From the NCBI GenBank assembly GCA_001825665.1, contig MHXZ01000125.1:1-64000 (forward strand): 64,000 nucleotides of DNA, given 5' to 3'. Below are positions 8,259 to 59,811 of the stretch, piece after piece. Positions within the stretch are counted from its first letter, which is position 1. Each line of letters starts with the position of its first letter. Origin of the DNA: Planctomycetes bacterium GWF2_41_51. Lineage in GTDB: Bacteria > Planctomycetota > Phycisphaerae > Sedimentisphaerales > UBA12454. The position numbers and the translations under genes are program-made. A model generated the notes under the pieces. The model searched no databases and had not been told where the DNA came from. It was given only the letters and a program-made list of their open reading frames with translations.

Positions 8259-8433
8259 TAGCTACCGAAGCGATTCGATAAGTAAAGCTGTTTAAAAATT
8301 CTATATTCAGGTTTTCTATTAAAAAAAAACGTCGATAGATATGTTCAGTTATCGTCGAAATCACATAAAATTGTTTTTGGCTCGTTGCCGAAACGAAGAA
8401 GAAGTTATTCAGTTTATTTTAAAGGAGGATACT

Positions 8434-9243: not shown

Positions 9244-9255
9244 TCTGTATTATAA

Positions 9256-9290
9256 TTGGGGCCTGTGACTTAATTAGACGCAGGCCCCAA
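9256..9290 (+). terminator. Strong hairpin after PEP-CTERM gene (terminator-like, weak T tract)
   Basis: TTGGGGCCTG ... CAGGCCCCAA perfect 10-bp stem. Confidence 0.6.
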
Positions 9291-9339
9291 ATGTTAAAGA
9301 ATTAGTCTATAAAAAAATAATGATTGAAAAATGAGGGGG

Positions 9340-9373
9340 CGCAAAAATGGATTATAATATTGTTATTTTTGCG
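9340..9373. promoter_or_regulatory. Inverted repeat enclosing a TATAAT-like sequence upstream of the large dockerin gene
   Basis: CGCAAAAAT-(16 nt containing TATAAT)-ATTTTTGCG. Confidence 0.35.
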
Positions 9374-9462
9374 AATAATCAAAACTGCTATCTATATAAA
9401 ATTATAAAAACTTAAATGAGAAAATTAACAATATTATAGTCATAAGGAAAGGGAGATTAGCT

Positions 9463-26976: not shown

Positions 26977-27945
26977 CTACAAATAAATTCCTTCTTGATT
27001 CCAAATATTCAGCATTAATTCATATCGTGATAAGCTCATTCCTGGATAAATACAATTACTGGTTGAAAAAATATATCCACCATTAGGCATTCCATTTTGT
27101 AAAGCATATCGTATCGATTTAACAACCTCATCATCTGTACCTGTTTGTAGTAAACCACAATTAACATTTCCAATCAGGCACATTTTATTACCAACTAATC
27201 GTTTCATTTCAGCGATATCGACTCCTGCTTGTGGATCAAGAGAATGGATCGCATCAGGTCGAACTTCCATCAATTGATCTAAAATCGGCATAATATTACC
27301 ATCAGTGTGTTTTATGGTATAGAATCCTAATTGACGATAACCGGTAATCAATTTTTGCAGATATGGTGTTATAAACTCAGCGAATAATGTGGGGCTTAAA
27401 TACGGCCCGGTATTGAGACAATAATCAGTACACAAAGCAAATCCATCGAGCCCACCATAATTGTGTAATTGGTATGCCCTGTCCAGTTTGCGCATAACAT
27501 TTTCATAAGCCTCGTTTTTCACCGCTTCGGGTTCGTCATGGAGACGATACGTAAATTTTAACATATCCGAACCGGACGGAATTGGAAATGTGGCATCACC
27601 ATGCATCATAAGAAAATACTGATCACCCATTTTTTTTCGAATAGTATCTATCAGATTAAATTCTTCTTCTATATTATTAGCGTTGTTAGTAAGAAAATTC
27701 GTCATAAGAAAGATGGCGCTGTGCGAAAATGTCTTTGCGATGGCAAGATAAATATCCGCAATTTCTTCGCGATGCAATTTACGTTCATTTTCCTGCATCT
27801 GGTCCCATTGCTCATATCTTCGATGTAAAGGATGTACCTTGCCAAAGACTTGCATCGTTGGAAAAAATATCAGCTCGAAATGGGGTACGCGACCCGTCAA
27901 AGGTTTTCTTTCAAGAGCTTTTATAAACCGTTCTCTTTCAGTCAT
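26977..27945 (-). CDS. UroD/MtaA-superfamily protein, H-T-D-G motif type
   Basis: URO-D fold pattern; FYTIKHTDGNIMPILDQLMEVRPDAIHSLDPQAGVD..., C-terminal FSTSNCIYPGMSL. Confidence 0.88.
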   Translation of the reverse strand: MTERERFIKALERKPLTGRVPHFELIFFPTMQVFGKVHPLHRRYEQWDQMQENERKLHREEIADIYLAIAKTFSHSAIFLMTNFLTNNANNIEEEFNLIDTIRKKMGDQYFLMMHGDATFPIPSGSDMLKFTYRLHDEPEAVKNEAYENVMRKLDRAYQLHNYGGLDGFALCTDYCLNTGPYLSPTLFAEFITPYLQKLITGYRQLGFYTIKHTDGNIMPILDQLMEVRPDAIHSLDPQAGVDIAEMKRLVGNKMCLIGNVNCGLLQTGTDDEVVKSIRYALQNGMPNGGYIFSTSNCIYPGMSLSRYELMLNIWNQEGIYL

Positions 27946-28961
27946 TAGTTATTACCTTCGATTACTACAGAATTCCAGGTTTTAAAAACCGTTTCTACGT
28001 TTTCTGGTTTTGCACCGGGGCCAAACTCACATTGCGCGATACAACCGCCATTTTGATAAAGACTATTGGCCACTTTCCAAACCGCATCTGCCACTTCGGA
28101 AGTTGAACCATTTGCTAATAGGTGCTGGCGGTCAATTTCGCCCCAAAATGTCAATTTGCCGCGAAACTGCGTTAGGTTTTCCGGACCCATACAAAATATC
28201 TGGCTGTTAAGCGCATCTAAGCCAATATCAATCAGGTCAGGAATAATATCTACAATGTAACCGTCAGAATGCATAAATGCTTTTTTGCCATTTTTATGTG
28301 CTATGTCAATGTATTCTTTATAGAGCGGTTTAAAAAGTTCTCGCCATTTAGCAGGAGAAACAAGCAATCCTCGCTGAGAACCCCAATCATCCATAAATGC
28401 AATTCCATCAATTCTAGTTTTAACCCATACTTCAATTTCTTTAAGATAAAACCCATGAATAAATCTGAGCAAATTATTAATTTCGTCCGGGTTGTCTATA
28501 AAGTCCATAAATACATTTTCAGTACCTCGAAGAAATTGCAGGCGTTCGAACGGCCGGGCACAACATGGCCCGTAAACAAACTTATCCGTTGCGATGCAAA
28601 AAGCATTTACTTTATCAATATCAACTTCAAGCATTTCATTAGGGAGAATTATTTTATTAAAATCGGACCAGTTTTTAATTAATGGATTTTTTACTTCACC
28701 GATAACACCGTCTTCAAGACTGCAGAATTCACAGCCCCATTCATCTGTAAATGTGCCTTTCAGGAATTGCTCACCTTTGGTTCGGGGAACAGACTTCAAA
28801 CAGTTAGGAGCTACAAGAATGTCATCCGGATAACAAGCTTTAATTTTCGCAACAATATCAGGAAAAAAGCGGCTCGACCACTGTAATCCCCAGATCTGCC
28901 TCGGCACTCGCAAAGGTTTTTCAAATTCAAGCGTTTGCAAAACAATTTCTCGTGAATTCAT
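27945..28961 (-). CDS. UroD/MtaA-superfamily protein, H-S-D-G motif type
   Basis: KKAFMHSDGYIVDIIPDLIDIGLDALNSQ..., IAQCEFGPGAKPENV. Confidence 0.88.
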   Translation of the reverse strand: MNSREIVLQTLEFEKPLRVPRQIWGLQWSSRFFPDIVAKIKACYPDDILVAPNCLKSVPRTKGEQFLKGTFTDEWGCEFCSLEDGVIGEVKNPLIKNWSDFNKIILPNEMLEVDIDKVNAFCIATDKFVYGPCCARPFERLQFLRGTENVFMDFIDNPDEINNLLRFIHGFYLKEIEVWVKTRIDGIAFMDDWGSQRGLLVSPAKWRELFKPLYKEYIDIAHKNGKKAFMHSDGYIVDIIPDLIDIGLDALNSQIFCMGPENLTQFRGKLTFWGEIDRQHLLANGSTSEVADAVWKVANSLYQNGGCIAQCEFGPGAKPENVETVFKTWNSVVIEGNN

Positions 28962-32903: not shown

Positions 32904-34016
32904 TCACGATAAAACGTTTCGAATTTTTTCACAATAGTAACATACATTATCCCATTTGGAATCCGGTGGTATTCTATGATCTGGACACGGAATATAACCG
33001 CCAAGAGCAACCAAAGGTTTCAGGCGTTCTATTTCAGCATCTATCGCAGAATAATCTTTTGCAAATACTGCCTTATTCATTCCTCCCACACCGCGCAGTT
33101 CTTTGCCATACATCTCCCGCCAGGGTTTTATGCTCGCATTCCATGTACCCACTTCTATTGGAAACATTGTATTAACACCATTTTCAAACCATATAGGCAA
33201 CAGCGCATCAATGTTGCCATCACAATCCAATGAGATAATTTCTATTCCGTGTTGCCGAACAAGGTCGGTGATTTTTTTGTATAAAGGACCAGTCTTTTCA
33301 GCAACTATCTTCGAACTTATAAGTGGACCATTTTTACAGCATATATCTTCCCAAAAATGAGCATAATCGAAATTAATACCGAATGATAGTAAAGATTGAA
33401 CACATTTAAATGAAACATCAGCTAATGTTTCAATGATTTCTGTTAACAATTTTTCATCATCTATAGAGAGGTAATTTATCGCTTCGACACCCAACCAATT
33501 TCTGACCACACCGATCAAACTACCCAGATGCAAACCAATAGGATTATCACTTATACTTGCTCTTAATGAATCGATAACTTTAATTTGAACACGATCATTT
33601 GAAAACTGCAATCTTGGCTTATAATACTTTTCCCAGCTTTTCCGGTCTTTAAGCAAATGATCTATTTCACATGGTACAGAAGCCATACCAGGCTTTTCCA
33701 AAACAACGACACCATCTGAACCAAGTTTTTTGTATGAGCCATCTTCAAATTGTTCAATTACTACGGACTCAAATGAAGGAAACAATCCACAGTTTGAAAT
33801 AAAAAGTGTTTGCCAGTTAAAATCAAACCCAAGTTTTTTTGCGATCGCCACATCGCATTTATTACCATCGGCCCAGCCATAAACCTCAGAGCGAGTCAGA
33901 TAACCTTGCTGGTACCATTTTTGAAGAGTTTCGGGCCAATACCCAAAATGCACAACAGGGAAAACATCAATTTTGTGATAATTTAGAACACCGAGTATTC
34001 GCTGTTTATTATTCAT
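32904..34016 (-). CDS. UroD/MtaA-superfamily protein, D-C-D-G motif type
   Basis: IEIISLDCDGNIDALLPIWFENGVNTMFPIEVGTW, GGYIPCPDHRIPPDS. Confidence 0.88.
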   Translation of the reverse strand: MNNKQRILGVLNYHKIDVFPVVHFGYWPETLQKWYQQGYLTRSEVYGWADGNKCDVAIAKKLGFDFNWQTLFISNCGLFPSFESVVIEQFEDGSYKKLGSDGVVVLEKPGMASVPCEIDHLLKDRKSWEKYYKPRLQFSNDRVQIKVIDSLRASISDNPIGLHLGSLIGVVRNWLGVEAINYLSIDDEKLLTEIIETLADVSFKCVQSLLSFGINFDYAHFWEDICCKNGPLISSKIVAEKTGPLYKKITDLVRQHGIEIISLDCDGNIDALLPIWFENGVNTMFPIEVGTWNASIKPWREMYGKELRGVGGMNKAVFAKDYSAIDAEIERLKPLVALGGYIPCPDHRIPPDSKWDNVCYYCEKIRNVLS

Positions 34017-34107: not shown

Positions 34108-36957
34108 CTATATTTGTTTTTTACTTAATTGCAATCTTAATTGGCCGAATGTATCGTTTCTTAAAACTTTAATTTTTATTTCACTCGGGAAAGTTATATC
34201 CAGATTAAGATTTTCTTTATCTCGTGACCAACTTACCTCTAACAAGCCCTTAGGAGTAAGAATACTGCCGCATGCTGATTTGATGCCACTGATATAAGGA
34301 CTTATCACAAATTCGTTACAACCTGGTTTTGTTTGCTTTATACCTAAAATTGTACGATGCAGAAAATAGAGAGCAGATGCAGACCACGCATGACAATGAC
34401 TTCTGGTTGGAAAACTGCATTTATCAAGTTTTTCGGCAGAGAAACATTCCCATACAGTTGTTGCGCCTGCTTTTAGCATTGGTCGGTAATTCCTGATTAT
34501 GGATTTTATGATTTTGTCTTCCATCCCGAGTTTCTCCATCGTTTCATAAAGATATTGAAATACAAATGGAGAACCCATCCCGATCATATCTGCTGGCGGA
34601 TTTCCAATATAGGAGCAAAGACGCGGAACTAAGGCTTTAGGTGCTATTTCATATAAAACAGCAAGCAAGCAGTCATGAATGCAGGACATAGAACTTTTAG
34701 AACCATCGGAATGAATGCTGTTTGGATAACGATATTTATTCTTATCAAAAGTAGAATTTATTGCTCGGCACAATGAAGATCTTAAGCCAGAAAGCCAAAC
34801 GATTGCGATTTCATCTTTCAATACATTAGCGCATTTCAATGCAGCATTTATCGCGCCTACCATCAGCATACTGTTATACAAAACAATTTTATGATCATTA
34901 TCCATTCCAATCCAGTCAAAGAAATGCCAGAATGGAGCGCTGAACAGACCTCGTTCATCAAGAAATGTTTGAGCGGACTTTAAGTTCTTGACTGCACAAG
35001 GCCAAATTTTCTTTAAAAATTTTAAATCTGCGGTATACCAGTAATAATCCCATACCGAAATATTCCAAAGAAAACTCCATGCAGGAATTATAAATTTCGC
35101 ACTGGTGGGAGCAACCGGAGAAACAATGGGAAACTTGTCTAAAGATTGAGATGCAAGTTCAATACATCTTTTTGCCAAATCCTTAATACCAAAAGTATAA
35201 TAAGCGTAAAGCGATTCATTCCTCGCGTCACCAACCCATAATGTTTGTTCATAGAGCGGACAATCAGTGAAAACATCCTCCATACAAAGCTCAAGGGTTT
35301 GCCTTGAAATTTGCCAAATTCGATTTAATTCGTGATTGCTGCAATGAAAAGTGGTTTTATGTTCTATCGGGTAGACAGATTCTATTAGTTCGAATTTTTG
35401 GAATTTAACCGGAGTTTTATTATTCCTGATAGTTAAAAAGATGTAACGTCCTGAACGTCGCACTATCGAAATGAATTTATTATGCCCTTTTTTGGTAATG
35501 TAACGTATAGTATTTCTGTTCCGAACAGTATGTTGAGGATTGCAATCTTTGTCCAAATTCTCTACACCTGCAATATCAATGATTACACCTGCGTCTGTAT
35601 ATAATTCAAATGAATAATAGCCGCAAGCCTGTCGGCCCATATCGTAAATTAACTCAATGTCACCTTTGTTTGATGGAATTATCGAAGTATATTTGGAATT
35701 GTTATCAGTTAGAAACTTTGGATTCCTTACGAAACCGGACGCTTTCGAAACAACAGCCCTATTGGCAAACTGCCAATAGCTGTCTATTACGAACATTTGT
35801 TCAGTTTCAATATATTCCGCATTCAATCGCAGGAATCGAACAAAGGAATTCAAATTTGCGCTTTTTCCAATTAGTTCTTCAACAACTGGATCAAATGCCG
35901 CCAGTGTTTTTACTGCTCGCGGGTACTTCTCAGCAGGTGATTTCCAGTAAAGGTCATTATCTGCATAAGAATATTCTGGAAATTTCATAATACACCAGGG
36001 ATTTTTTCCAACCCTGCCAAGCGGATTTTCAAACTTCACTGCCGCCGGTATTGAAACAAAACGCAGGGAAATATCCTTTGCGTGCATTCTAATGTTGTCT
36101 GTAATGGCTGATAATATATTACGTCCGGGATGAAGGTCGTATACTCCATCAGTATTGTGTTTACCATTGACCGCAATTTTGAATTTCGCACCAATAAGAC
36201 TTTCGCTCAATACTACAATCTGGCAACGACGCACAGTTCTTAAAATCGTAAACATGGCAAACGGCGTGGACATATTGCGATCAGCTTCAATTAAGTCAGG
36301 ATAAATCAAACGAGTCACAGGCACACAAAAATCAAGACCGTCAGCACGAACGATATTAGAAGCTATATGCTTTTCTACTCGGACAAGCCGCTTTGTAAGA
36401 TGAGGTATATCCCGTTGTCGAAGGTTTTTCCATGGACCGCCAAACGCGCGATAAATTTCAGCGGCGGATTTGTAATTTAACTTTTCATTTTTGGCATCGT
36501 ACAATTCAGAAGGCTTTGCTGAAAAAGATATTTTCGCGGTAGCGGAAATAAAACTTTTGACTTCTGCTATTAGCCAGGTTTTATCAGTACAAATATAAGT
36601 CGACTCTCCAGATGGTGATTTTATTTCCAGTTGAGCAAGTAAACCAGGCTCCTGAGGAATATTATGCGCAGTTCCCGTTCCGAAGTATTTGGCCTGTATG
36701 ACTATCTCGTTAAGTCCTGCTTTGAGATAATTTGTAAGCTCAAAAACATCATAGCTGAAATTATCAGGCCAGCTTCGAGCAGGTCCATCATTTATCCATA
36801 CACCATTAATATAAAGTCTGTAATAGCTATCGGCAGTAACTGCAATTGTGGCAGAGCCGATTGTAGAAATTCGAAAGGATTTTCTTGCATATATTGTTTG
36901 ATTGTACGGATTGCGGTCCTTTTGCTTTTTCCATATCCATTTGGCTTTAATTTTCAC
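34108..36957 (-). CDS. GH78 alpha-L-rhamnosidase
   Basis: IKAKWIWKKQ..ARKSFRIS; VFTDCPLYEQTLWVGDARNESLYAYYTFG; TTVWECFSAEK; SHCHAWSASALYFL. Confidence 0.9.
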   Translation of the reverse strand: MKIKAKWIWKKQKDRNPYNQTIYARKSFRISTIGSATIAVTADSYYRLYINGVWINDGPARSWPDNFSYDVFELTNYLKAGLNEIVIQAKYFGTGTAHNIPQEPGLLAQLEIKSPSGESTYICTDKTWLIAEVKSFISATAKISFSAKPSELYDAKNEKLNYKSAAEIYRAFGGPWKNLRQRDIPHLTKRLVRVEKHIASNIVRADGLDFCVPVTRLIYPDLIEADRNMSTPFAMFTILRTVRRCQIVVLSESLIGAKFKIAVNGKHNTDGVYDLHPGRNILSAITDNIRMHAKDISLRFVSIPAAVKFENPLGRVGKNPWCIMKFPEYSYADNDLYWKSPAEKYPRAVKTLAAFDPVVEELIGKSANLNSFVRFLRLNAEYIETEQMFVIDSYWQFANRAVVSKASGFVRNPKFLTDNNSKYTSIIPSNKGDIELIYDMGRQACGYYSFELYTDAGVIIDIAGVENLDKDCNPQHTVRNRNTIRYITKKGHNKFISIVRRSGRYIFLTIRNNKTPVKFQKFELIESVYPIEHKTTFHCSNHELNRIWQISRQTLELCMEDVFTDCPLYEQTLWVGDARNESLYAYYTFGIKDLAKRCIELASQSLDKFPIVSPVAPTSAKFIIPAWSFLWNISVWDYYWYTADLKFLKKIWPCAVKNLKSAQTFLDERGLFSAPFWHFFDWIGMDNDHKIVLYNSMLMVGAINAALKCANVLKDEIAIVWLSGLRSSLCRAINSTFDKNKYRYPNSIHSDGSKSSMSCIHDCLLAVLYEIAPKALVPRLCSYIGNPPADMIGMGSPFVFQYLYETMEKLGMEDKIIKSIIRNYRPMLKAGATTVWECFSAEKLDKCSFPTRSHCHAWSASALYFLHRTILGIKQTKPGCNEFVISPYISGIKSACGSILTPKGLLEVSWSRDKENLNLDITFPSEIKIKVLRNDTFGQLRLQLSKKQI

Positions 36958-37017: not shown

Positions 37018-39003
37018 CTATTTGAATGCATCATTATCAAAATAAAGCAGCTCACCGGTTTCTTTGCCGGCAATAATTTCAAGTTTTCCGTCGCCGTTAA
37101 TATCCGCAGCAGCCGGAGCACAACAATGATGCCCCATATCAACCATTTGACCGTTTTTCAGTAACAACGGTTTAACAACAAACATCGGATTATTTCTGTT
37201 ACCAACATTTTTTAGCAAAACAAAAGTAGACATGCCTTTTGGATAACCACCTACATGTATTGGTAATGGAGTGCTGCTACTTGTGCCAACGATAATATCG
37301 GTAAGATTTGGATCTGACCAATTACAAGCATATAATTTGACTCTGCCTTCGCCGCCGCTGGTATTATCGAGCCTGATCCATCTGCCTTGTACATCGACAA
37401 GCCTTATTCCATTTTTAAGTTCGAGTAAATCCTTATGTGATGCTTTTGGGTAATAGGCAATCATTCCCTGGCGGTCGATAAAAATCATTTCAGGAGATCC
37501 ATCTCCATCTATATCAGCAACAGTCGGCCTCACTCTCCAGGCAGTTCTAAATTCCTTTCCATTAATTTTGAATCTGCCCGCATAGGTAAATTTTGCACAT
37601 TTCACAGTACCTATATTGCGATATAAAGTATAATAGCCCGTTATATCACCCATAATTATATCTAAAAGTCCTGTTCCACACCAATCGTAAAGAAAAGGAC
37701 ATGTATAACCGTGCAGTTTTTCATCAGGACCTTGAATACAACCTTTGTCTCCCGCAATGACTCTGATAATTTTGCCGTCGGCAACAATTTTTTCAGGCTT
37801 GCACCAGCGAGGCGTCTTAACTGTGCCTTTATTTTCGATATAATAAAGATAACCGTCTTCGACACCAACTACAAGATCGTTAACACCATTCGCATTCAAA
37901 TCTCCAAAAGCAGGAACAGAAAAACTTCCAACTCGAAGATTATGATCTTCACAAAGAGCAGGACTTGGAGCAGAAAATTTCAAACTTCCATTTTCAGACA
38001 GATTTCTAATGAAGTATATTTCTCCGCTTAAGGAGCCGAACAATATATCTGGCAAATCCCTTGAAGGCAATTTTATCGGTGCAGGACTTGGACACTGAAA
38101 ATCAAACACGACTGGACCGTCAATTCCAGGCAAAGGGCCTATCCTCGTAAAAACCAGGTCGCCCGTTTTATCAGATAATTTGAATACCTCATGTTCCCAC
38201 TTCATCAGGACAATGGCTTCAAGTTTTTTATCGCCATCGAAATCCGCAATTCCAACAGCTCCCAGAGAACGTATGGGAATCTCATTTCCATTTTCATCTT
38301 TTATCTTACCTTTATATTTCAATTCAATGGAATTTTGTTTTTGCTCTATTATGAAAAGATGCAATTTACCTTTTATTTCTCCACCTGACCAGTTACCATT
38401 CGAATCACGAGCAATATCAAGTCCTTCCTGATTAATTCCTATTGCTCGGCCACCGTAAACTCCGCGTTCGCCGGGGTAATATTCAGATGTGTCACAAACA
38501 CTTACAATAAGTTCAAATGGTGCATCAGTTTTTCTTCTGAAGATACTTGCATAAGCTGTCCATTTCCCAAAACCTTCGCCTTTGAGTTTGAGCAAATCTG
38601 AAATTCCGAGATTTGAATTAACCATTTCAAGGCGTGGATCATTGATGGTTCCGACATTTTTCCATAATTTTCTACTGCATTCGGTTAAAAAATAGCAAGT
38701 GCCTCCTTTATCGGTTACAGGCAATATTGCTTCAGCCCATGTTCCCAGTTCCTTAATGAATTTCCCATTGCCAAATTCTATGGTATTGGAGTTGCAGCTT
38801 TTTAAAGTATAAAGAGCCACACCTTCGCGAAGACCTGAAACAAGGATACTTTGCGGTTCCCCTTCGGAACACGGTAATGCAGTTACTTGCGAAACAATAC
38901 CTATATTTAGATGCAGCAAATCGGCTAACTCGGCGTCAAAATACAGTGGTGAATAAGCCTTTTTATTCATGTTGATGCTTCTCCAGTGAATTAGAATCCT
39001 CAA
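37018..39003 (-). CDS. FG-GAP/VCBS repeat beta-propeller protein
   Basis: Repeated GDLNANGVNDLVVGVEDGYLYYIEN, DIDGDGSPEMIFIDRQG, DINGDGKLEIIAGKETG. ORF start overlaps the upstream gene; MNKKAYS is the likely start. Confidence 0.85.
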   Translation of the reverse strand: MRILIHWRSINMNKKAYSPLYFDAELADLLHLNIGIVSQVTALPCSEGEPQSILVSGLREGVALYTLKSCNSNTIEFGNGKFIKELGTWAEAILPVTDKGGTCYFLTECSRKLWKNVGTINDPRLEMVNSNLGISDLLKLKGEGFGKWTAYASIFRRKTDAPFELIVSVCDTSEYYPGERGVYGGRAIGINQEGLDIARDSNGNWSGGEIKGKLHLFIIEQKQNSIELKYKGKIKDENGNEIPIRSLGAVGIADFDGDKKLEAIVLMKWEHEVFKLSDKTGDLVFTRIGPLPGIDGPVVFDFQCPSPAPIKLPSRDLPDILFGSLSGEIYFIRNLSENGSLKFSAPSPALCEDHNLRVGSFSVPAFGDLNANGVNDLVVGVEDGYLYYIENKGTVKTPRWCKPEKIVADGKIIRVIAGDKGCIQGPDEKLHGYTCPFLYDWCGTGLLDIIMGDITGYYTLYRNIGTVKCAKFTYAGRFKINGKEFRTAWRVRPTVADIDGDGSPEMIFIDRQGMIAYYPKASHKDLLELKNGIRLVDVQGRWIRLDNTSGGEGRVKLYACNWSDPNLTDIIVGTSSSTPLPIHVGGYPKGMSTFVLLKNVGNRNNPMFVVKPLLLKNGQMVDMGHHCCAPAAADINGDGKLEIIAGKETGELLYFDNDAFK

Positions 39004-40321
39004 TAAGATATAATACTTCCTGGCCGGATGCCAGCCAACAATCTGTTTCTATTCCTCCTGCCGCTTCTTTTAATTTGGCTCTAACGGTATTTTTATACTT
39101 GTAAGCGGTTGCGCCATATTCAAATCTGATTATCTTTGAATCTTTTTTTGCAAATCTGGTCACACAATGCACTGGTACAGTTTTAGAATTATTGACTATT
39201 AAGATAAAATCAGAACCGTTCTTATCCCTGAACCTGCTGATTATAAAAGGATGGTTGGGATCTTGCTTTATGTCAAAGAAACCAATTCCTTTTCCAGCGT
39301 AAACGGCAGAAACACATTCATCAGGCTCGAAGGCCTTAGTCGAACCAGAAACACGCCCAACCTGCTGAACGCTTAAAAGTTCAAGATGCAGAAATAAATC
39401 TCCGTAGAGAGTTTGAAATCTTCGATGTGTTCGGCGGAGCCAGTCAAATTTTTCAGTTTTTCGGCCGGTATTATCTATCGGTCCGCATCTGAAATTCTCA
39501 CATAATGGTGTGTAGAATGTATAATAGAATATTCCCTTTGCGCCATAAGCAAGAGCACAGTTAAATTGCCATCGTATTGAATCTTCGCTTGGAACATCGT
39601 ATAAAATATGAGGAGTAGCTAAAATAATTGTCCAAAAATCACAATTATGTTTTTTAGCATAATTACTATAATTGTAGAGACTATCGAAGAAAAGATTAAT
39701 TCCCTCTTGGGGGCTGCCATAATCCAATTGGGCATAACAATCGTAAGATATGATTTCAGCTCCGTTTTTGATTATAACCGAATGAACATCTTCGGTAAAT
39801 TCATCAAAGTTTTTATAATGATAATAAGGTGATACCGGATACCATGGATGATGGTTTATTATTGGTTGAATATCTGGTGTAAGTTCGGTAAATATTTTGG
39901 TTGCTTTTCCCACCATAGATGCCAGGTTATGCGTAGGAGAGGGTTCATCTGCAATCTTGATACCAAATAATGCAGGATGATTTGAGTAATCTGCAATAAC
40001 AGATATTAGTTGTTTTTTATATAATTCAAGCTCCAGCGGCTTTCGACCTGCATCGTAAGCTATAGATCGAGAATCATCGACAATTATTTGAATGCCATTT
40101 TTCTGTGCCCAATCCAGAACACGTTTTATTTTGTCAGGTGAGTTTTGATGAACATAAGTCAGCGTAAAACCCGCATCTGCCCAGGTTTCAACCATTTGTT
40201 CATTTAATTCCGGCATCCCTGTCGGCCAGAAACCAATTGGGAATTTAGCAGGTCTTATCCTTGCGGCAAAAACCAATTCAGTTGCCATTAATATAACAAA
40301 AATTACATTCCGGAATTTCAT
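38963..40321 (-). CDS. Secreted TIM-barrel GH-like protein (paralogue A)
   Basis: Signal peptide; FPIGFWPTGMPELNEQMVETWADAGFTLTYVHQ; IKIADEPSP. Confidence 0.65.
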   Translation of the reverse strand: MKFRNVIFVILMATELVFAARIRPAKFPIGFWPTGMPELNEQMVETWADAGFTLTYVHQNSPDKIKRVLDWAQKNGIQIIVDDSRSIAYDAGRKPLELELYKKQLISVIADYSNHPALFGIKIADEPSPTHNLASMVGKATKIFTELTPDIQPIINHHPWYPVSPYYHYKNFDEFTEDVHSVIIKNGAEIISYDCYAQLDYGSPQEGINLFFDSLYNYSNYAKKHNCDFWTIILATPHILYDVPSEDSIRWQFNCALAYGAKGIFYYTFYTPLCENFRCGPIDNTGRKTEKFDWLRRTHRRFQTLYGDLFLHLELLSVQQVGRVSGSTKAFEPDECVSAVYAGKGIGFFDIKQDPNHPFIISRFRDKNGSDFILIVNNSKTVPVHCVTRFAKKDSKIIRFEYGATAYKYKNTVRAKLKEAAGGIETDCWLASGQEVLYLIEDSNSLEKHQHE

Positions 40322-40361: not shown

Positions 40362-41801
40362 TCAGTTACAATTGGAATTAAAAACATCGCCGCAGCTAAG
40401 CCATCCCTGTATAAGGATAACTAAATCATCATAATTAACATAACAGTCGCTATTGAGGTCGCCGTTAAGTAATGTATCCGAACATTTTTCTATTCGATAG
40501 ACAACTTCTTCGCCTGGTAAAAGTTCGACAGTAATCTCACAATGATCTGAAAATTTAACAGGACTTACTAATGTAGTATCATTAACATCATACCGGAATA
40601 ATCTCAAATGATTAGTGTTCAAAGATAAATTACAGATAACATTGCTATTCCAGTCATTATTTACAATCATAACGTAGTCCAGATTATTTACGTCAGTAAA
40701 TCGACTTACAATGAAGGGGTAATTTGCATTTCCTGCTTCGTCTTTGATATCTTTAATTAAATCGTCAGGAGCGAAAAGCGGAACCGACGCAAACGCCATT
40801 CCTGCCTGCATAGCTTTTACAAGCTGAAGATTTAAAAATAGATTTCCGTATGACTTATGAAATTTCTGATGCGTATTTTTCATCCAATAGAATATCTCTG
40901 TTTTTGTCCCGTCCTTTCCGATTGGACCATCCTCAAACATAGGATCATTAAGTGTATAAAACGTATAATATACAACCCCCTTGCATCCGTATGCTATGGC
41001 TGAATTAAATTGCCAGCGGAACGCGGCTTCTGAGGGCATTTCATAATTACCTTCAGCAACATGTGGCGTTGAAAGGAGTATTACCCACATATCTTTGTTA
41101 TTATCGTCAGTCCATTGACCGTATCTGTCCAAACTTTGGAAAAACATCTTCCACCCGTTCGTAGAGCCAAGGCCTTGGTAGTCTGGATCCATCTGGGAAT
41201 AGCTTGTGAAAGAAAGATTATTCAAGCCCGACCCAGAATGCAGTTCGAGCAAAGCATTTCTGTACTCACTGTATGTTTCATAACTGCCATAAGGTGTATT
41301 AACATCATACCAGGGAAAAAAATTTACAATCCTATGCCTTGAAATATCAAGAGAATTTGCAATTTCTATATATTCATATACCTGCTGCATATTATTTGGT
41401 CTGGGTTCATCCATAACCAGATACCCAAAATTGGCAGGGTACGAGCAATAATCCGCCACTGCCTCTTGAAAAACAGTTTTGTAGTCATTGGGATTGGCCC
41501 AAAGTGGCTCTGAGGTGCTTTGATTTACACAGTACGTTCTGCTATCACAAATAATTGCCTGAATACCTCTTTCGTTAGTCCAATTTAAAATTCGTTTATT
41601 ATAGTAACTATATGTTTGGCTTATATAGGGCATAGTTATACCAGCTTCAACCCAATCATCGACTTTGGCACTGGAACTTATTGTCGGCATTCCGGTATGC
41701 CAGAACCCGATGGGAAAATTCCATGGTTTAACTTTCTCCGCAAATGCTGCATTGACAAAAAATAAAACAAATATTAAACAAATCGAATGCCGGTTAGACA
41801 T
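40362..41801 (-). CDS. Secreted TIM-barrel GH-like protein (paralogue B) with C-terminal dockerin
   Basis: FPIGFWHTGMPTISSSAKVDDWVEAGITMPYISQ; GYLVMDEPRPN; C-terminus LLNGDLNSDCYVNYDDLVILIQGWL. Confidence 0.75.
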   Translation of the reverse strand: MSNRHSICLIFVLFFVNAAFAEKVKPWNFPIGFWHTGMPTISSSAKVDDWVEAGITMPYISQTYSYYNKRILNWTNERGIQAIICDSRTYCVNQSTSEPLWANPNDYKTVFQEAVADYCSYPANFGYLVMDEPRPNNMQQVYEYIEIANSLDISRHRIVNFFPWYDVNTPYGSYETYSEYRNALLELHSGSGLNNLSFTSYSQMDPDYQGLGSTNGWKMFFQSLDRYGQWTDDNNKDMWVILLSTPHVAEGNYEMPSEAAFRWQFNSAIAYGCKGVVYYTFYTLNDPMFEDGPIGKDGTKTEIFYWMKNTHQKFHKSYGNLFLNLQLVKAMQAGMAFASVPLFAPDDLIKDIKDEAGNANYPFIVSRFTDVNNLDYVMIVNNDWNSNVICNLSLNTNHLRLFRYDVNDTTLVSPVKFSDHCEITVELLPGEEVVYRIEKCSDTLLNGDLNSDCYVNYDDLVILIQGWLSCGDVFNSNCN

Positions 41802-41929
41802 ATACTCACCTAAATGTTTTGAATCTTTAAAATTGTACTAATCTTTATACAAATATCGAGGCAACATTTATTTTCTTATTAGCAAATGCCACCTCGATTT
41901 TCCCCTATTTACAATTTATCTCTGCAAAA

Positions 41930-42745
41930 TCAGCCCTTCTTTTTAATTAAAGCTGCTGCGCCGATAGCCAAAAAGAGCATAGTACATGGTTCAGGAATAC
42001 TCGAATAAAAATTATCAACCGTCATTGCACCGCACTGCGCTGAATCGCGCGTACTGTTAACTGGATGAAATTTGTAGAATTTTATTCCCAAATCTGTATT
42101 ATAGTGAAGAGCTGACGGACGTGTATGCGAAAACACCGGAGTCTCGTCTGAATAACCCTCCGGATTTGCGTCATAAGCCGAGTTATAGGAATATATTTTA
42201 AAAGTAAGAGTAAGATTAACAAGGGTTGGATCCGTAGCGTTTAATCCAATTCCCTGCATTGTCAGATCATAATGATATTTATTCAATCCACGATCAACAC
42301 CATCTGATGGCATACCGGTCATAAAAAAAAGTCGTTTATTGCCATAAGCTGAAACACCATCACCCAACTGCCCGGCAATAATATTCCTGGCGGCGGTACC
42401 AATGAAGAATCCATTATACTGATCATTACTCGTATCATTCAATGGATCTAAAAGCTGCATATCCCATGTAAACCGCAATGCTTCATTAGCACTGTTAAAA
42501 CGCGGAATAAGATTATTGGCGCTCATCTTTGCCTGCGATAACCAATTCGAGCCTATCTCACTCATATCTAACAATGCCTGGCCGTTCTCAAAAGCTACAT
42601 GACCGGTTCCCGGTCCTTCATACTGAGTCCAGTTAGTTTCAGACTCGGTTGGATTCGCAAAGTTGTCATAAAGATGCAGCGTCGCAAAAACATTATTCTC
42701 AAATACAAAACAAAACATAATCGCAACTATTAAAAGCTTCTTCAT
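41930..42745 (-). CDS. PEP-CTERM protein carrying one copy of a ~240-aa YDNF/GPGTG module
   Basis: LHLYDNFANPTESETNWTQYEGPGTGHVAFENGQALLDMS...; C-terminus SIPEPCTMLFLAIGAAALIKKKG. Confidence 0.85.
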   Translation of the reverse strand: MKKLLIVAIMFCFVFENNVFATLHLYDNFANPTESETNWTQYEGPGTGHVAFENGQALLDMSEIGSNWLSQAKMSANNLIPRFNSANEALRFTWDMQLLDPLNDTSNDQYNGFFIGTAARNIIAGQLGDGVSAYGNKRLFFMTGMPSDGVDRGLNKYHYDLTMQGIGLNATDPTLVNLTLTFKIYSYNSAYDANPEGYSDETPVFSHTRPSALHYNTDLGIKFYKFHPVNSTRDSAQCGAMTVDNFYSSIPEPCTMLFLAIGAAALIKKKG

Positions 42746-42784
42746 TTTCTTCTCCTTAAATAATTCTTCTTAACTTTTCTAATT

Positions 42785-44392
42785 TCATTCACAATCAATA
42801 TTATTTAAATCTGTGCATTTGAGCCAATCTGCCGAAAACAATGCAAAGTCTTCTATATTAATATAACAATCGCCATTAATATCGCCGGTCATATCAATAC
42901 ATATTTCGCTTTCCAGATTTTGATAGAAGTTGTCTATTGTTATAGCTCCGCACTGGGAACCATCTCTCGGTGTAGTTGAGTACGGATTCCACTTAAAGAA
43001 TTTGATATCTAAATCTTCATCGTAAGGAAGAGTCAGCATACGCGTGTATGATCGTAAAGGGGTATTGTTTGAATAAGCGTCGGGATTAGAGTCATAAGCG
43101 CTGTCATAGCCATACACTTTTAATGTAACTGTAAGATCAACAAGTGTTTCGTCTACTGGGTCGATTCCTGTTTCTTTGAGTGTAAGATCATAATGATATT
43201 TATCCAGCCCGCGATCAATATCGTCTGATGGCATGCCGGTTAGTACAAAAACACGTTTATAATTATAAAACGAACTGGCGTCGCCATGCTGACCGGCATG
43301 AATCTGTTCATAAGATTCACCATCAATACCGATGCTGAATCCGTTTTCATAATCAAAATTAGTATCATCATCAGGATCTAACATTTGCATATCCCACGTG
43401 AACCGCATATTTTTATCCGTATCGGTAAGACGCGGCTTAAGTTTTTTCGCGAGTATGCGTGCTTTTGTCATCCAATTTTGCGGATTTACAATGCTCATAT
43501 CCAACAAGGCCTGGCCATCCTCGAAAGCAACATAACCTGTTCCCGGCCCCTGTTCCACGTTCCACAATAATTTTGAAGTCACGGGATTCTCAAAATTATC
43601 ATAGAGATACACCTCGTCGTCACGAACTATATGACTTTCAAGACTTTGATAAAAATTATCTAATGTCATCGAACCTGACTGCAAAGTATCACGTGTACTG
43701 TTAACTGGATGATATTTGAAAAATTTGATATCCAAAGCAGTATTATACTGAAGAGCTGAAGGACGTGTATGCGAAAGCAGTGGCGTCTCATTTTGATAGC
43801 CCTCAGGATTTGTATCATAAGCCTGATTATAAGCATATACCTTAAACGTTATTGTGAGATTAACTAGGGTAGGGTCTGTATTCAGTCCGGTTCCCTGCAC
43901 TGTCAGATCATAATGATATTTGTCCAATCCCCGATCAATTCCATCTGACGGCATTCCTGTAAGCAGAAAGACTCGTTTATATCCATATGATTGAATATCG
44001 TTACCCAACTGACCTGCAATTATGCTTCTGGAAGCAGTTCCAATGAAGAATCCATTATAAAAGTCATTATTGGTATCATTCAACGGATCTAGAAGCTGCA
44101 TATCCCATGTGAATCGCATTGCCATAAATGGATCGGTTATATGGGCAGCAAGTTGATTGGCAGCTATTTTTGATTGCGTCAGCCAATTATGAGAATCCAC
44201 AATGCTCATGTCCATCAGAGCCTGCCCGTTTCCAAAAGCTACATAACCGGTTCCTGGCCCTTCATACTGTGTCCAAATACTTTCAGATTTTATTGGGCTT
44301 GTGAAATCGTCGTACAAATATAACGGAACATTCGCTTGAACTGCTGAATATAATGTTAATACAGTAATTATTCCAAATAACAATTTTTTCAT
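42785..44392 (-). CDS. Dockerin protein with two tandem copies of the same module
   Basis: YLYDDFTSPIKSESIWTQYEGPGTGYVAF.. and YLYDNFENPVTSKLLWNVEQGPGTGYVAF..; C-terminus MTGDINGDCYINIEDFALFSADWL. Confidence 0.88.
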   Translation of the reverse strand: MKKLLFGIITVLTLYSAVQANVPLYLYDDFTSPIKSESIWTQYEGPGTGYVAFGNGQALMDMSIVDSHNWLTQSKIAANQLAAHITDPFMAMRFTWDMQLLDPLNDTNNDFYNGFFIGTASRSIIAGQLGNDIQSYGYKRVFLLTGMPSDGIDRGLDKYHYDLTVQGTGLNTDPTLVNLTITFKVYAYNQAYDTNPEGYQNETPLLSHTRPSALQYNTALDIKFFKYHPVNSTRDTLQSGSMTLDNFYQSLESHIVRDDEVYLYDNFENPVTSKLLWNVEQGPGTGYVAFEDGQALLDMSIVNPQNWMTKARILAKKLKPRLTDTDKNMRFTWDMQMLDPDDDTNFDYENGFSIGIDGESYEQIHAGQHGDASSFYNYKRVFVLTGMPSDDIDRGLDKYHYDLTLKETGIDPVDETLVDLTVTLKVYGYDSAYDSNPDAYSNNTPLRSYTRMLTLPYDEDLDIKFFKWNPYSTTPRDGSQCGAITIDNFYQNLESEICIDMTGDINGDCYINIEDFALFSADWLKCTDLNNIDCE

Positions 44393-44421
44393 TTTATTCC
44401 TCCGATTTATTTCTATTAAAC

Positions 44422-45321
44422 TTATAAATTACAGTCCGAATCTGCCATGTTGGAACATTTCATCCAATCGTCTGCTAATAATGCCATATCCTGCATATTT
44501 ACATAACAATCCTTATCGATATCACCTTGCAAAAGTTCTGAACAGGGATTGTAAATATTTTGCCACAAGTTATCTATTGTCATAGCTCCATATTGTTCGA
44601 TGCTGCTCTTGTAAATGTAAGGTGAATCATTGTAGAATATGACATCCAGTTCAATATCGACTGGCAAAGATAATCCTCTTATATATCGCAGCAATGGGGT
44701 TTCGCTCACATAATATTCAGGATGAGAATCATATGCTGCGTTATAAGTGTAAACTGAGAAATCTGCCGACACCCACATAAGATCCGGATTTCCAGTATAA
44801 GGCTCTGTTACTGTCATACTAAGATCATAATGATATTTATCTGTCCCTCGCTCAATATCCTTGGGCATTCCGGTCAGTGTAAAGCATCGCTTAAAATCAA
44901 AAGTTCCGGAATCTTTACCTTCCTGACCGGCAGCTACAAAATATCCGGCTCCTGCATCAATACCTATCCATAAACCATTATCACAATCATGTGTTGTAGG
45001 GGCATTGTTGTGCGGGTCAACGTGCTGCATATCCCACGTAAATCTTAGTTCCCTTCCCGAGTCGGCTGTTGAAATTATCGGCGATAGATGTGTTGCCTTA
45101 ATTCGACACCGCTCAAGTGTAGAAGGATCGGTTTGAACAATGCTCATGTCAAGCAATGCCTGCCCCTCTGTAAACTCCACAGTTGCAGGAGCAATCACCC
45201 CAAGATTCCATCGGTCATTAGAAACCTCAGCAGAATTGAAATTGTCATACAAGTACAATTCCGCAAAACTTACTCCGCATGTAAGAAGAATTGAAAATAA
45301 AATATTGAACTTATTACTCAT
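44422..45321 (-). CDS. Dockerin protein with one diverged copy of the same module
   Basis: YLYDNFNSAEVSNDRWNLGVIAPATVEFTEGQALLDMSIV..; LLQGDIDKDCYVNMQDMALLADDWM; start at MSNKFN (45321). Confidence 0.85.
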   Translation of the reverse strand: MSNKFNILFSILLTCGVSFAELYLYDNFNSAEVSNDRWNLGVIAPATVEFTEGQALLDMSIVQTDPSTLERCRIKATHLSPIISTADSGRELRFTWDMQHVDPHNNAPTTHDCDNGLWIGIDAGAGYFVAAGQEGKDSGTFDFKRCFTLTGMPKDIERGTDKYHYDLSMTVTEPYTGNPDLMWVSADFSVYTYNAAYDSHPEYYVSETPLLRYIRGLSLPVDIELDVIFYNDSPYIYKSSIEQYGAMTIDNLWQNIYNPCSELLQGDIDKDCYVNMQDMALLADDWMKCSNMADSDCNL

Positions 45322-45349
45322 TTCACACCTCCTATTTAAAATCGTCTTT

Positions 45350-46171
45350 TCACCAAAAATATAAACGCAGTTTGGCCCAATGACTGTAATGACCGCCATT
45401 AACCATAGGCCCTTCGTTTGTTCCCATAACAGAAGGCAAAACCCATTCTGCATGCCCATCTGCATAACACCTGTTGCTGCCTGATACCATCTTTTCAAAC
45501 TCCGCAAGCCCGACGCCCTTGAAGTCATTGCCCAACCCATATTTTGGATGATTTATAGAACCTAAATGCGCCCCATTTCCGGTATAATCTTTCCACCAGA
45601 TACTCCTATCAGCCATTAAGTACATCCTGCTGTTATTCTGAGACATCTTCAGAGTCGCCGTTCTAATAGGAGTATCAAACATAACACCAATTTTGCCGTC
45701 AAATGCGCTACAGACTTCTTTATACCCTAAACCTGCCAAATAGACTAAATTTGTTGCATAATCGACCGTTCCATCGGGGTCAGCCGGATCGCATACACCC
45801 CTATACTCTACAGGTTCCGGAGAGTACAATTTTGTACTCGGGCAACTATAAAGCTTGTACACCTTGGGAACCAAAATATCCAAAAATTGTGTTTTATCCA
45901 CATTAGAAGGGAATAAAAGATCATATCCATTGGCATTCCAGACATGACCAAGTGGATTTTTCGACAGAAGTTTACCATCATGAGATGCTGCATAAGTAAA
46001 ATTTGAAACTGCTATCTGACGCATATTTGAACGACAAACAGTTCTTCGCGATTGCTCTCGAGCTTTTGAAAGAGATGGCAAAAGAACTGCCAGCAACAAA
46101 GCTATAATAGAAATCACAACTAAAAGTTCGACAAGCGTAAACGCTGCCCCGAAACTTCGTTTCAATACCAT
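45350..46171 (-). CDS. Prepilin-type (pseudopilin-like) protein
   Basis: AFTLVELLVVISIIALLLAVLLPSLSKAREQSRRTVCRSNMRQI. Confidence 0.9.
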   Translation of the reverse strand: MVLKRSFGAAFTLVELLVVISIIALLLAVLLPSLSKAREQSRRTVCRSNMRQIAVSNFTYAASHDGKLLSKNPLGHVWNANGYDLLFPSNVDKTQFLDILVPKVYKLYSCPSTKLYSPEPVEYRGVCDPADPDGTVDYATNLVYLAGLGYKEVCSAFDGKIGVMFDTPIRTATLKMSQNNSRMYLMADRSIWWKDYTGNGAHLGSINHPKYGLGNDFKGVGLAEFEKMVSGSNRCYADGHAEWVLPSVMGTNEGPMVNGGHYSHWAKLRLYFW

Positions 46172-48419: not shown

Positions 48420-49445
48420 ATGGCTATAAGCAAAATGGAAGTAAGACAGAGATTTCATAAAGTAATGAACTTTGAACCCGTAGATCGGTTGCCATTATTT
48501 GAATTTGCTTCATGGTGGGACAAAACAATTGAAAGATGGCGCCGGGAAGGTTTACCTGATAATTATAAAGACATTGGTGAAATTAATGATTATCTAGGTT
48601 TGGATAAATTCAGACAATTTTGGATAAGACCCTATACACCCGATATTCCAAAAGTTGAGCACGGTCATCCCCTTATAAACAATATTGATGAGTACAAAAA
48701 AATTAAGACATTTTTATATCCTCCTTCTTGTAATTTGACTTCTTCAGATATCGAGAAACTGAAAAATTATGCGATTTTACAGGAACAAAATAAAATGGTA
48801 TTTTGGGCGACTATTGAGGGATTTTTCTGGTTTCCGAGGCGTCTTTTAGGAATTGAAAATCATTTGTATGCTTATTATGATAATCCCGAACTTATTAACA
48901 AAATTTGTCAGGAAGTCTTGGCATTCAACCTTATGGCCATTGAAAAAATATCTAAAATATGTAAGCCAGATTTTATTACTTTGGCAGAAGATATGTCTTA
49001 TAATAATGGTCCAATGATTTCGAAGGATATTTTTGAGCAGTTTCTCGCACCATATTATATACCTCTTTGCAAAAAATTAAAAGAATCAGATATTATGATA
49101 ATTGTCGATAGCGATGGGTATGTTGATGATATGATCGATTGGTTACTAAATGTTGGCGTTGATGGAATCACTCCGCTTGAAGCTAATGCCGGCGGTGATG
49201 TTGTAAAGTTAAGAAAAAAATTTCCGAATCTTTTGATGATTGGTAATTTCAATAAACTTATTATGAAAGAAGGCAGAGATGCGATGGTAAAGGAATTCGA
49301 AAGATTATTACCCGTGATGAAAAGGGGCGGTTTTGTTCCTTCCGTTGACCATCAAACACCGCCCGACGTATCTTTAAACAATTATTATTTATATCTTGAA
49401 CTATTAAATGAATATTCGGTAAGAGCAGTAAACAAACAAAGATAA
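48420..49445 (+). CDS. UroD/MtaA-superfamily protein, D-S-D-G motif type
   Basis: MIIVDSDGYVDDMIDWLLNVGVDGITPLEANAGGDVV, GGFVPSVDHQTPPDVS. Confidence 0.88.
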   Translation: MAISKMEVRQRFHKVMNFEPVDRLPLFEFASWWDKTIERWRREGLPDNYKDIGEINDYLGLDKFRQFWIRPYTPDIPKVEHGHPLINNIDEYKKIKTFLYPPSCNLTSSDIEKLKNYAILQEQNKMVFWATIEGFFWFPRRLLGIENHLYAYYDNPELINKICQEVLAFNLMAIEKISKICKPDFITLAEDMSYNNGPMISKDIFEQFLAPYYIPLCKKLKESDIMIIVDSDGYVDDMIDWLLNVGVDGITPLEANAGGDVVKLRKKFPNLLMIGNFNKLIMKEGRDAMVKEFERLLPVMKRGGFVPSVDHQTPPDVSLNNYYLYLELLNEYSVRAVNKQR

Positions 49446-57757: not shown

Positions 57758-58672
57758 TTATTTTAATTCTTTAAGATATTTTTTGATTTTTTGTTTTTCC
57801 TGCTCTCTGAAGCAATGAAACGGCTCTTCTATAAAATCACTGCAAATGTTCATCAGATTCAATGAACATTTTACGCCTTTGAGAAAACTTGAACTGTGTT
57901 TGCCGGTACTGTAAATCGTTGTGCTTATCCACATAACCTTGTTATGCAATTCTCGTACCTTATCCATATTGCCCGCTATCGCAGCATCGTACAAATCTAC
58001 ATACAACCTGGGAAAAATATTTGCTCCGCCGCATATACCGCCATGACCGCCGAGCAATATAGTTTCCGCAAGCAGTTCTTCAGGACCAACCAGAAAAGAA
58101 AAATCTTTTCTTTCATTAAGCAGCAACTGCAATTTATGAAAATAAATCATATTGGCGGAACTATCCTTTATGCCGTGAATATTAGGAATTTGTGCGGCTT
58201 TTATCACTGTTTCAGGTTCGAAGAAGACTTTTGTGCAGGATGGCATGTTGTATAAGAACAATGGTACCGGAATTTTAGGAGCAAGATGTTCGATGTATTC
58301 GAGCAATTCAGGCTGGCCTGTGGGGAAATAATATGGTGGTGCAAGAACAACAGCGCTGACACCCTGCTTATGCGAATATTCCGCGATTTTTATCGATTCG
58401 ATGTGCGAAGTATCTGTAATGCCTACAAGAACTGGAACACGTTTGTTGACGAGTTTACAAACACGTTCGATTAATTCGTATCGAAGTTTATAACTCAGAG
58501 ATGGAGCCTCGCCTGTTGTACCCAGTATAAATAAACCGTGAACGCAGCCGGAGAGGATATGTTCAATGAGTTTTTCCAAGCCTTTAATATCAATATTGTC
58601 TCTGTCGAGCAGAGGCGTTACCATCGGCGGGATTATACCTTTAAGTGGTTTTGGCAAATTCGTTGTATTCAT
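57758..58672 (-). CDS. Dihydrodipicolinate synthase/N-acetylneuraminate lyase family aldolase
   Basis: KGIIPPMVTPLLDRDNIDIKGLEKLIEHILSGCVHGLFILGTTGEAPSLSYKLRYELIERV; PLFLYNMPSCT; IHGIKDSS. Confidence 0.92.
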   Translation of the reverse strand: MNTTNLPKPLKGIIPPMVTPLLDRDNIDIKGLEKLIEHILSGCVHGLFILGTTGEAPSLSYKLRYELIERVCKLVNKRVPVLVGITDTSHIESIKIAEYSHKQGVSAVVLAPPYYFPTGQPELLEYIEHLAPKIPVPLFLYNMPSCTKVFFEPETVIKAAQIPNIHGIKDSSANMIYFHKLQLLLNERKDFSFLVGPEELLAETILLGGHGGICGGANIFPRLYVDLYDAAIAGNMDKVRELHNKVMWISTTIYSTGKHSSSFLKGVKCSLNLMNICSDFIEEPFHCFREQEKQKIKKYLKELK

Positions 58673-59811
58673 TTAATTATTTCTTGTATATAATTTTTTG
58701 ATGCTTCAATCAAAGCAATAATATTTTCTTCGGGAGTATTTCTCGCCACCGCACAGCCGCTGCCGAGTATAAAGCCGCCATGCCCTGCTTCTTTCATACA
58801 TTTCAAAGCTTCAGCTTTGACATCCTGCACGCTTCCATTTAGAAGTGTCAATGTATTGACTCCGCCCATCAGTGATATGCTGTTTCCAGCCTGTTCCCTG
58901 ACCTGTTTAACGGTAAAACCGCCAAGCGGGTCAAGCGGGGCTATGCAGTCGAGGTCGGTTTGAACAAGCCATTTTATTACAGGAAGGACATTGCCGCAGA
59001 TATGGCAGTATATGATTGCTTTTTTATTATAATTATGTAGTTCCGAGCATACGGTTTTGATATACGGAAAGACAAATTCCTTCCAGTGCTGCGGAGATAT
59101 CAGCGACATATTGCCTGCCGAGTCATTCAATCTTAAAACTTCGATGCCGTTATCGAGCCAGTATTTGCCTTTTGCGATGGCTGTTTGGGCGCCTTTTTTC
59201 ATAACTGTATGGACAAGTGCGGGGTTTTCAATTAGATCAAATAATGCTTTTTCAATTCCCCGAAATCTTATGTAATAGGACATTGTCGCAGAATCGCAGT
59301 CGCCTATGATTTCCATATCGCCGCCGAATTCCTCTATTATTTGTTTTTGATTTTTACCCCAGCTAAAACTGTCAAAAATGTCCTTCTGCGGCACAGCAAT
59401 TGCTTTTGCATCTTCTATATTATTTACAACTGAATCGGGGGAAATCCAGTTTCCATGAGCCAGCATTTCGGGATTTCTGATATCAAAATATTTTTTGTCG
59501 AAAAGTTTCGTAGCCAGGCCGCCTTCAAGATCGATTGTTCCGATTTTTTCTCCCTTTGAGTTTATTTCATAGATTTTATCATCGTGTTTTAAAAGTTTAC
59601 GGGGATAAAAATGAAATTGCCGGACAGCATCAAGGCCTAATTTTTTTCCGGCCAGCGCGATGACTCTCAATGCTGTTAGCGGGTCCTGAATGACATCCAA
59701 TATAGAAGCATTGGTTACTCTTGCGGAGAAATCAACCCAGATTTTAGGTACAACTGGAACTCGGTCTACTTTTTCATTTCTCAAAGCTGCTATAAATCTG
59801 TCATTAGCCAT
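58669..59811 (-). CDS. UroD/MtaA/CmuA-superfamily protein with canonical H-x-C...C zinc-type motif
   Basis: KKAIIYCHICGNVLPVIKWLVQTDLDCIAPLDPLGGF...GGFILGSGCAVARNTPEENI. Confidence 0.9.
   Translation of the reverse strand: MANDRFIAALRNEKVDRVPVVPKIWVDFSARVTNASILDVIQDPLTALRVIALAGKKLGLDAVRQFHFYPRKLLKHDDKIYEINSKGEKIGTIDLEGGLATKLFDKKYFDIRNPEMLAHGNWISPDSVVNNIEDAKAIAVPQKDIFDSFSWGKNQKQIIEEFGGDMEIIGDCDSATMSYYIRFRGIEKALFDLIENPALVHTVMKKGAQTAIAKGKYWLDNGIEVLRLNDSAGNMSLISPQHWKEFVFPYIKTVCSELHNYNKKAIIYCHICGNVLPVIKWLVQTDLDCIAPLDPLGGFTVKQVREQAGNSISLMGGVNTLTLLNGSVQDVKAEALKCMKEAGHGGFILGSGCAVARNTPEENIIALIEASKNYIQEIIK

Follow-up and report, generated by a model that had tools for sequence, protein, structure and literature searches.

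A module shared by PEP-CTERM and dockerin-like proteins in pseudopilin cassettes of a planctomycete genome, with a possible role in glycan use

In a 64,000-nucleotide stretch of the genome of Planctomycetes bacterium GWF2_41_51 (contig MHXZ01000125.1; the whole stretch analyzed is called the window here), three adjacent genes next to a stand-alone pseudopilin gene encode exported proteins that together carry four copies of one module. One of these proteins ends in a PEP-CTERM tail and the other two end in single-repeat, dockerin-like tails. The same two tags accompany stand-alone pseudopilins across the genome, and proteins bearing different tags in the same cassette tend to share a module. 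We give an even chance to the reading that each of these cassettes serves the use of a particular glycan and that two sorting routes display one lectin-like module alongside a pseudopilin dedicated to the cassette.

RESULTS

One module recurs in three neighboring exported proteins

A first-pass annotation of the window, made from the sequence alone, had described four copies of a module in three exported proteins. The gene coordinates and the copies were as it gave them (Table 1), and a whole-genome search with the PEP-CTERM protein returned exactly four module places (E values of 1e-45 to 1e-188); other matches of this protein were weak and confined to its C-terminal end. Identities to the PEP-CTERM copy (copy A) were computed over ~235 amino acids, and 74 of the 251 columns in the four-copy alignment are invariant. 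For the closest pair, copies A and B1, nonsynonymous (dN) and synonymous (dS) divergences were 0.20 and 1.26 (Nei-Gojobori method); because dN/dS is 0.16, the module proteins are constrained by purifying selection. The annotation had also placed both kinds of tagged protein beside a pseudopilin, and this arrangement was borne out, with all four copies in place and the first tagged gene 28 nt from the pseudopilin gene.

Tagged proteins of one cassette share modules across the genome

The genome (4.83 Mb in 138 contigs, 95.6% complete) contains 81 matches to prepilin N-termini, 91 to PEP-CTERM, and 78 to dockerin-like tails. With pilin clusters left out, 62 pseudopilin genes stand alone. For 42 of these, a PEP-CTERM or dockerin-like gene lies no more than 5 kb away on the same strand; the opposite strand gave 2 per tag. 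At 3 kb, 23 of them had a PEP-CTERM gene and 17 a dockerin-like gene on the same strand, where 3.5 and 2.8 were expected and the opposite strand gave 2 and 0. Given these counts of tagged genes near the 62 stand-alone pseudopilins, the locus is one case, among about 60 cassettes, of a genome-wide architecture. LacI, GntR, and AraC regulators, sodium:solute symporters, uroporphyrinogen-decarboxylase-like (URO-D) genes, and glycoside hydrolases are found among the cassette neighbors.

To compare tagged proteins, genes were called in ~14 kb around the stand-alone pseudopilins, tails and signal peptides were removed, and all tagged proteins were compared; a BLAST match with an E value of <1e-3 was taken as a shared module. 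As a control, the cassette labels of PEP-CTERM proteins were permuted in 2,000 shuffles. PEP-CTERM and dockerin-like proteins shared a module in 15 of the 22 cassettes that carry both tags, while the shuffles gave a mean of 0.87 and a maximum of 5. The cassette counts are approximate, since the gene calls and tail patterns were simple. Similar pairs within a cassette made up 22 of 41 PEP-CTERM/dockerin-like pairs and 11 of 130 PEP-CTERM/untagged pairs, and there were none with pilins; dockerin-like proteins shared a module with one another in 11 of 28 pairs. Twins, the differently tagged proteins of a cassette that share a module, are 25 to 79% identical. The annotation had seen the locus as a second, convergent instance; the sharing between tags is instead a statistical rule among about 60 pseudopilin cassettes.

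A further pseudopilin cassette in the window, locus 1 (7350-12606), carries PEP-CTERM and two-repeat dockerin-like proteins that share short stretches only (E value of 0.002) and so exemplifies the twin rule poorly. No relation between its proteins and the module described here was detected by BLAST or hhalign, in agreement with the annotation.

Sharing was also seen in other genomes of the order, in 4 of 7 two-tag cassettes in G018 and 2 of 2 in G056 (both small samples), and the listed pairs are 44 to 74% identical. Twins at L114, L115, L119, L121, L132, and L134 have this same range of identity within the cassette, whereas the best cross-genome module matches among those listed fall below 40%. 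Twins in other genomes may evolve in step or arise repeatedly. In G123, a genome that lies outside the order, pseudopilins come with PEP-CTERM genes, but there are almost no dockerin-like tails.

The module has one partial relative and a predicted lectin-like fold

Profile and sequence searches gave no meaningful match to the module in Pfam, NCBIfam, or PDB; membership in a well-characterized family, which would have told against the annotation, was not seen in these collections. A pattern search combined with tblastn found no relative in viral contigs or in the GTDB contig collection. Among 397 class, 161 order, and 392 phylum genomes (overlapping sets), the sole relative outside the locus is a partial one in G123. 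It is flanked by a LacI-like regulator on one side and a pseudopilin on the other, two GH130-like genes (identified by eye) are close by, and its setting is the same as that of the locus under study. This relative (L103:8999-11261, contig C139) ends after ~135 module residues, the second half being missing, and the pseudopilin frame starts at, or overlaps, its stop codon. When the module was aligned by hhalign with every protein of the other cassettes, scores were no better than those of controls, and homology to the modules of those cassettes is therefore undetectable by sequence.

The annotation had proposed structure models as a check. Two AlphaFold models, made from different query copies, are all-beta and of low confidence (mean predicted local distance difference test [pLDDT] scores of 59 and 54), but both matched concanavalin-A-like (ConA-like) folds. 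The best matches of both were legume lectins, and both also hit related carbohydrate-binding folds (E values near 1e-4 to 1e-3; template modeling [TM] scores of ~0.3 to 0.46); the first model additionally matched beta-1,3-glucanases, ulvan lyase, and alginate lyases. These models suggest a ConA-like, lectin-like jelly roll. Indirect support for this assignment comes from the tagged proteins of the cassettes, of which 23 of 77 match Laminin_G_3, a ConA-like family and the commonest recognizable module family there. With such a predicted fold, glycan binding by the module is plausible.

The pseudopilin and the two tails

The pseudopilin label held: against TIGR02532 (cutoff, 16.3), the gene product scored 18.4 bits when proteins were scanned and 22.2 bits when the genome was searched. 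Its score against DUF1559 (PF07596), 20.4 bits, is under the cutoff of 23.3. The PEP-CTERM label is clear by eye, with the PEP motif followed by a hydrophobic stretch and KKK, but the Pfam score of 12.9 bits is under the cutoff of 20.7. The genome encodes two exosortases (PF09721; E values of 6.5e-53 and 1.1e-48).

The dockerin-like tails in the window consist of a single EF-hand-like repeat, score below the Pfam dockerin cutoff, and align to positions 2-23 or 2-29 only of the dockerin profile (E values of 0.48 to 0.58). Across the cassettes, 37 of 49 dockerin-like tails have one repeat only; 32 of these 37 carry a Cys in the loop and 36 carry a Trp after it. Dockerin loops usually have Gly where the single-repeat tails have this Cys. 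The single-repeat tail of these 37 of 49 tagged proteins (L044-L101 and the window) has approximately the consensus GDLNxDCxVDFxDFAxLAENWLxC, and a second Cys often lies toward its end. A search for cohesin (PF00963) gave no match at an E value of 1 in the 95.6% complete genome. Of the "dockerin" label, then, the EF-hand-like repeat stands, while the second repeat and the cohesin partner are both wanting; by sequence, the tails are better called single-repeat and dockerin-like than dockerin. The Cys-bearing single-repeat tail is possibly a distinct anchoring signal.

Layout and surroundings of the locus

Intergenic gaps, read downstream from the pseudopilin stop codon to the start of 44422..45321 and onward, are 28, 29, 39, 128, and 40 nt. 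A longer open reading frame to 45540 was considered for 44422..45321 and rejected, as it overlaps the pseudopilin; the internal-ATG reading given in Table 1 is correct. No terminator-like site was seen between the cassette genes, and both terminator and promoter scans performed at or below chance level. A divergent ROK-family gene is a candidate regulator of the cassette, and palindromes in the intergenic region near it are weak. Beyond this gene, which faces away upstream of the cassette, are a CBM9-like gene and then a URO-D gene; the regulator has an HpcH aldolase and a PfkB kinase on its other side. Downstream on the cassette strand follow two paralogous exported proteins, of which the tagged one (40362..41801) is probably a carbohydrate enzyme, an FG-GAP protein, an alpha-L-rhamnosidase-like enzyme, and a sodium:solute symporter. 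No SusC/SusD match was present among the scanned or annotated proteins of the locus. Judged by these predicted functions, the context is one of sugar catabolism.

Several URO-D genes, possibly encoding methyltransferases, lie around the sugar loci of the window (26977-28961, 32904-34016, 48420-49445, and 58669-59811). Such genes are frequent near other pseudopilin cassettes too (6 of 88 neighbors).

Table 1. Cassette genes, module copies, and neighboring genes, in window coordinates
Feature	Position	Strand	Remarks
Stand-alone pseudopilin, first cassette gene	45350..46171	-	TIGR02532 score; N-terminus AFTLVELLVVISIIALLLAVLLPSL
Exported protein, one module copy, single-repeat dockerin-like tail	44422..45321	-	Signal peptide by eye; tail GDIDKDCYVNMQDMALLADDWMKC...C
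Exported protein, two module copies, single-repeat dockerin-like tail	42785..44392	-	Tail GDINGDCYINIEDFALFSADWLKC...C
Exported protein, one module copy, PEP-CTERM tail	41930..42745	-	IPEPCTMLFLAIGAAALIKKKG
Module copy C	44524-45261	-	In 44422..45321; 41% identical to copy A
Module copy B1	43631-44326	-	In 42785..44392; 69% identical to copy A
Module copy B2	42887-43615	-	In 42785..44392; 53% identical to copy A
Module copy A (PEP-CTERM copy, identity reference)	41981-42682	-	In 41930..42745
Exported protein, single-repeat dockerin-like tail	40362..41801	-	36% identical to 38963..40321
Untagged exported paralogue of 40362..41801	38963..40321	-	Weak DUF4434 match (E 0.0011, below cutoff)
Alpha-L-rhamnosidase-like enzyme, downstream, same strand as cassette	34108..36957	-	Bac_rhamnosid6H, E 2.4e-36
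Divergent ROK-family regulator with helix-turn-helix	46448..47701	+	ROK, E 4.2e-27; HTH_24

DISCUSSION

The sequences demonstrate the repeated module, its cassette, purifying selection, and the rule that ties the two tags together across the genome; a lectin-like fold (modeled with low confidence), the binding of glycans, two display sites, and a part for the pseudopilin are what we infer. The locus would be one of about 60 substrate-specific carbohydrate-use cassettes. Each is centered on a stand-alone pseudopilin of its own, and a sugar-type regulator (here, ROK), enzymes, and transporters lie close to many of them. The Sec route would export the ConA-like module, and display would take two forms: the copy with the PEP-CTERM tail would be handled by the exosortases of the genome, and further copies, two of them on one protein, have the single-repeat dockerin-like tail. 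With one specificity and two sortings, a polysaccharide could be caught at one surface site and held or handed over at another, while the pseudopilin may form or tip a fiber, or a secretion pseudopilus, that serves the substrate of the cassette. We take the most likely function to be that a glycan specific to the cassette is captured and handed over, and we hold this to be about as probable as its negation.

Several observations weigh against this proposal. The dockerin-like tail is without a known partner. Co-transcription was judged from the gene spacing, which is compatible with an operon but is not proof of one. Seven of the 22 two-tag cassettes, locus 1 of the window included, showed no detectable sharing; for the other genomes, the 4 of 7 in G018 is also the highest value that shuffling gave, and 2 of 2 was reached by shuffles (maximum, 2) in G056. 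With mean pLDDT scores and TM-scores as low as those given above, the fold is only suggested; the module matches no ConA-like family of Pfam, and neither catalytic nor binding residues could be placed on it.

Could local duplication account for the pattern? A fast-evolving exported protein might simply be copied in tandem, its copies gaining whichever tail is at hand, with no functional pairing. The four copies are indeed adjacent, with the closest pair 69% identical, and dockerin-like pairs share modules as well (11 of 28). Against this, proteins with the two tags share a module in 22 of 41 pairs, a far higher rate than the 11 of 130 for PEP-CTERM proteins and their untagged neighbors, twin pairs persist down to 25 to 45% identity, and independent cases occur in other families of the order; we regard duplication as an unlikely explanation. 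Less probable still is that both tagged forms serve to build or anchor a biofilm or exopolysaccharide matrix made by the cell itself, which the neighboring enzymes would remodel. PEP-CTERM proteins have been tied to exopolysaccharide production (PMC1569441), and the module could bind a self-made polymer as well as a food polymer, but the neighbors here are catabolic (the rhamnosidase-like enzyme, the symporter, the aldolase, the sugar kinase, and sugar-type regulators), and a genome with dozens of differing cassettes fits many substrates more readily than a single matrix.

Docking of the dockerin-tagged proteins on a cohesin scaffold, as in a cellulosome, would be in keeping with a tail that resembles half a dockerin, and a complex of cohesins and dockerins has been proposed for other planctomycete lineages (PMC6461901). 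This explanation fails because the tails are mostly single-repeat (37 of 49) and no cohesin is detectable in the genome at an E value of 1; we reject it as very improbable.

Glycan-use cassettes of the proposed kind can be set beside known systems. In Bacteroidota, SusC/SusD-type polysaccharide utilization loci group, for each substrate, a dedicated regulator, surface glycan-binding proteins, enzymes, and transport. The cassette studied here is alike in these respects (the binding and the regulator's role being predicted), but where no SusC/SusD match appears among its annotated proteins, it has a pseudopilin that stands alone and tails of two kinds. As in PEP-CTERM/exosortase sorting, a PEP tail occurs together with exosortases, two in this genome; PEP-CTERM systems are described mostly as single-gene operons (PMC1569441), whereas here there are multigene cassettes and a twin protein with the other tail. 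Type I dockerins (PF00404) and the tails have in common a D-x-N-x-D calcium-loop-like repeat followed by a helix, but the former have two EF-hand-like repeats of ~22 residues and a cohesin partner, and the latter mostly have one repeat, usually with a Cys in the loop, and no cohesin was detected in the genome. Laminin_G_3 and other ConA-like lectins (PF13385) resemble the module in its predicted all-beta fold and are its best fold matches, although the module has no profile match.

How planctomycetes capture and import large polysaccharides is unsettled as to the pilins, binding proteins, and cargo specificity, and pili-like fibers are suspected (PMC5394234 and PMC12078418). Dextran is bound along planctomycete pili-like fibers and then taken into the periplasm (PMC5394234), and dedicated pilin-like proteins have been proposed as "fishing rods" (PMC12078418). 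The common idea is that dedicated pilin-like proteins catch polysaccharides; lectin modules and PEP-CTERM or dockerin-like partners are not named in the parts of this work consulted. The cassettes offer parts that match: a pseudopilin, one lectin-like specificity on two routes, regulators, and enzymes. We found no description of the pseudopilin/PEP-CTERM/dockerin-like twin arrangement in the open-access literature, an absence that is not proof, and the arrangement hints at a seemingly undescribed means of catching polysaccharides. Planctomycetota carbohydrate gene clusters are functionally uncharacterized, with 30 to 34% of cluster genes unassigned (PMC11131199).

More tentatively, and with the balance of probability tipped against it, the order may possess a polysaccharide-capture system of its own, made of many parallel cassettes that each combine a dedicated pseudopilin with one substrate-specific lectin module on two differently sorted proteins, the Cys-bearing single-repeat tail being a new anchoring signal and not a dockerin. 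If true, such cassettes would be the functional counterpart of SusCD in planctomycetes of this order. The rule, seen across the genome, that a cassette joins a pseudopilin with PEP-CTERM and dockerin-like proteins bearing the same module provides a concrete parts list and makes the fiber hypothesis testable substrate by substrate.

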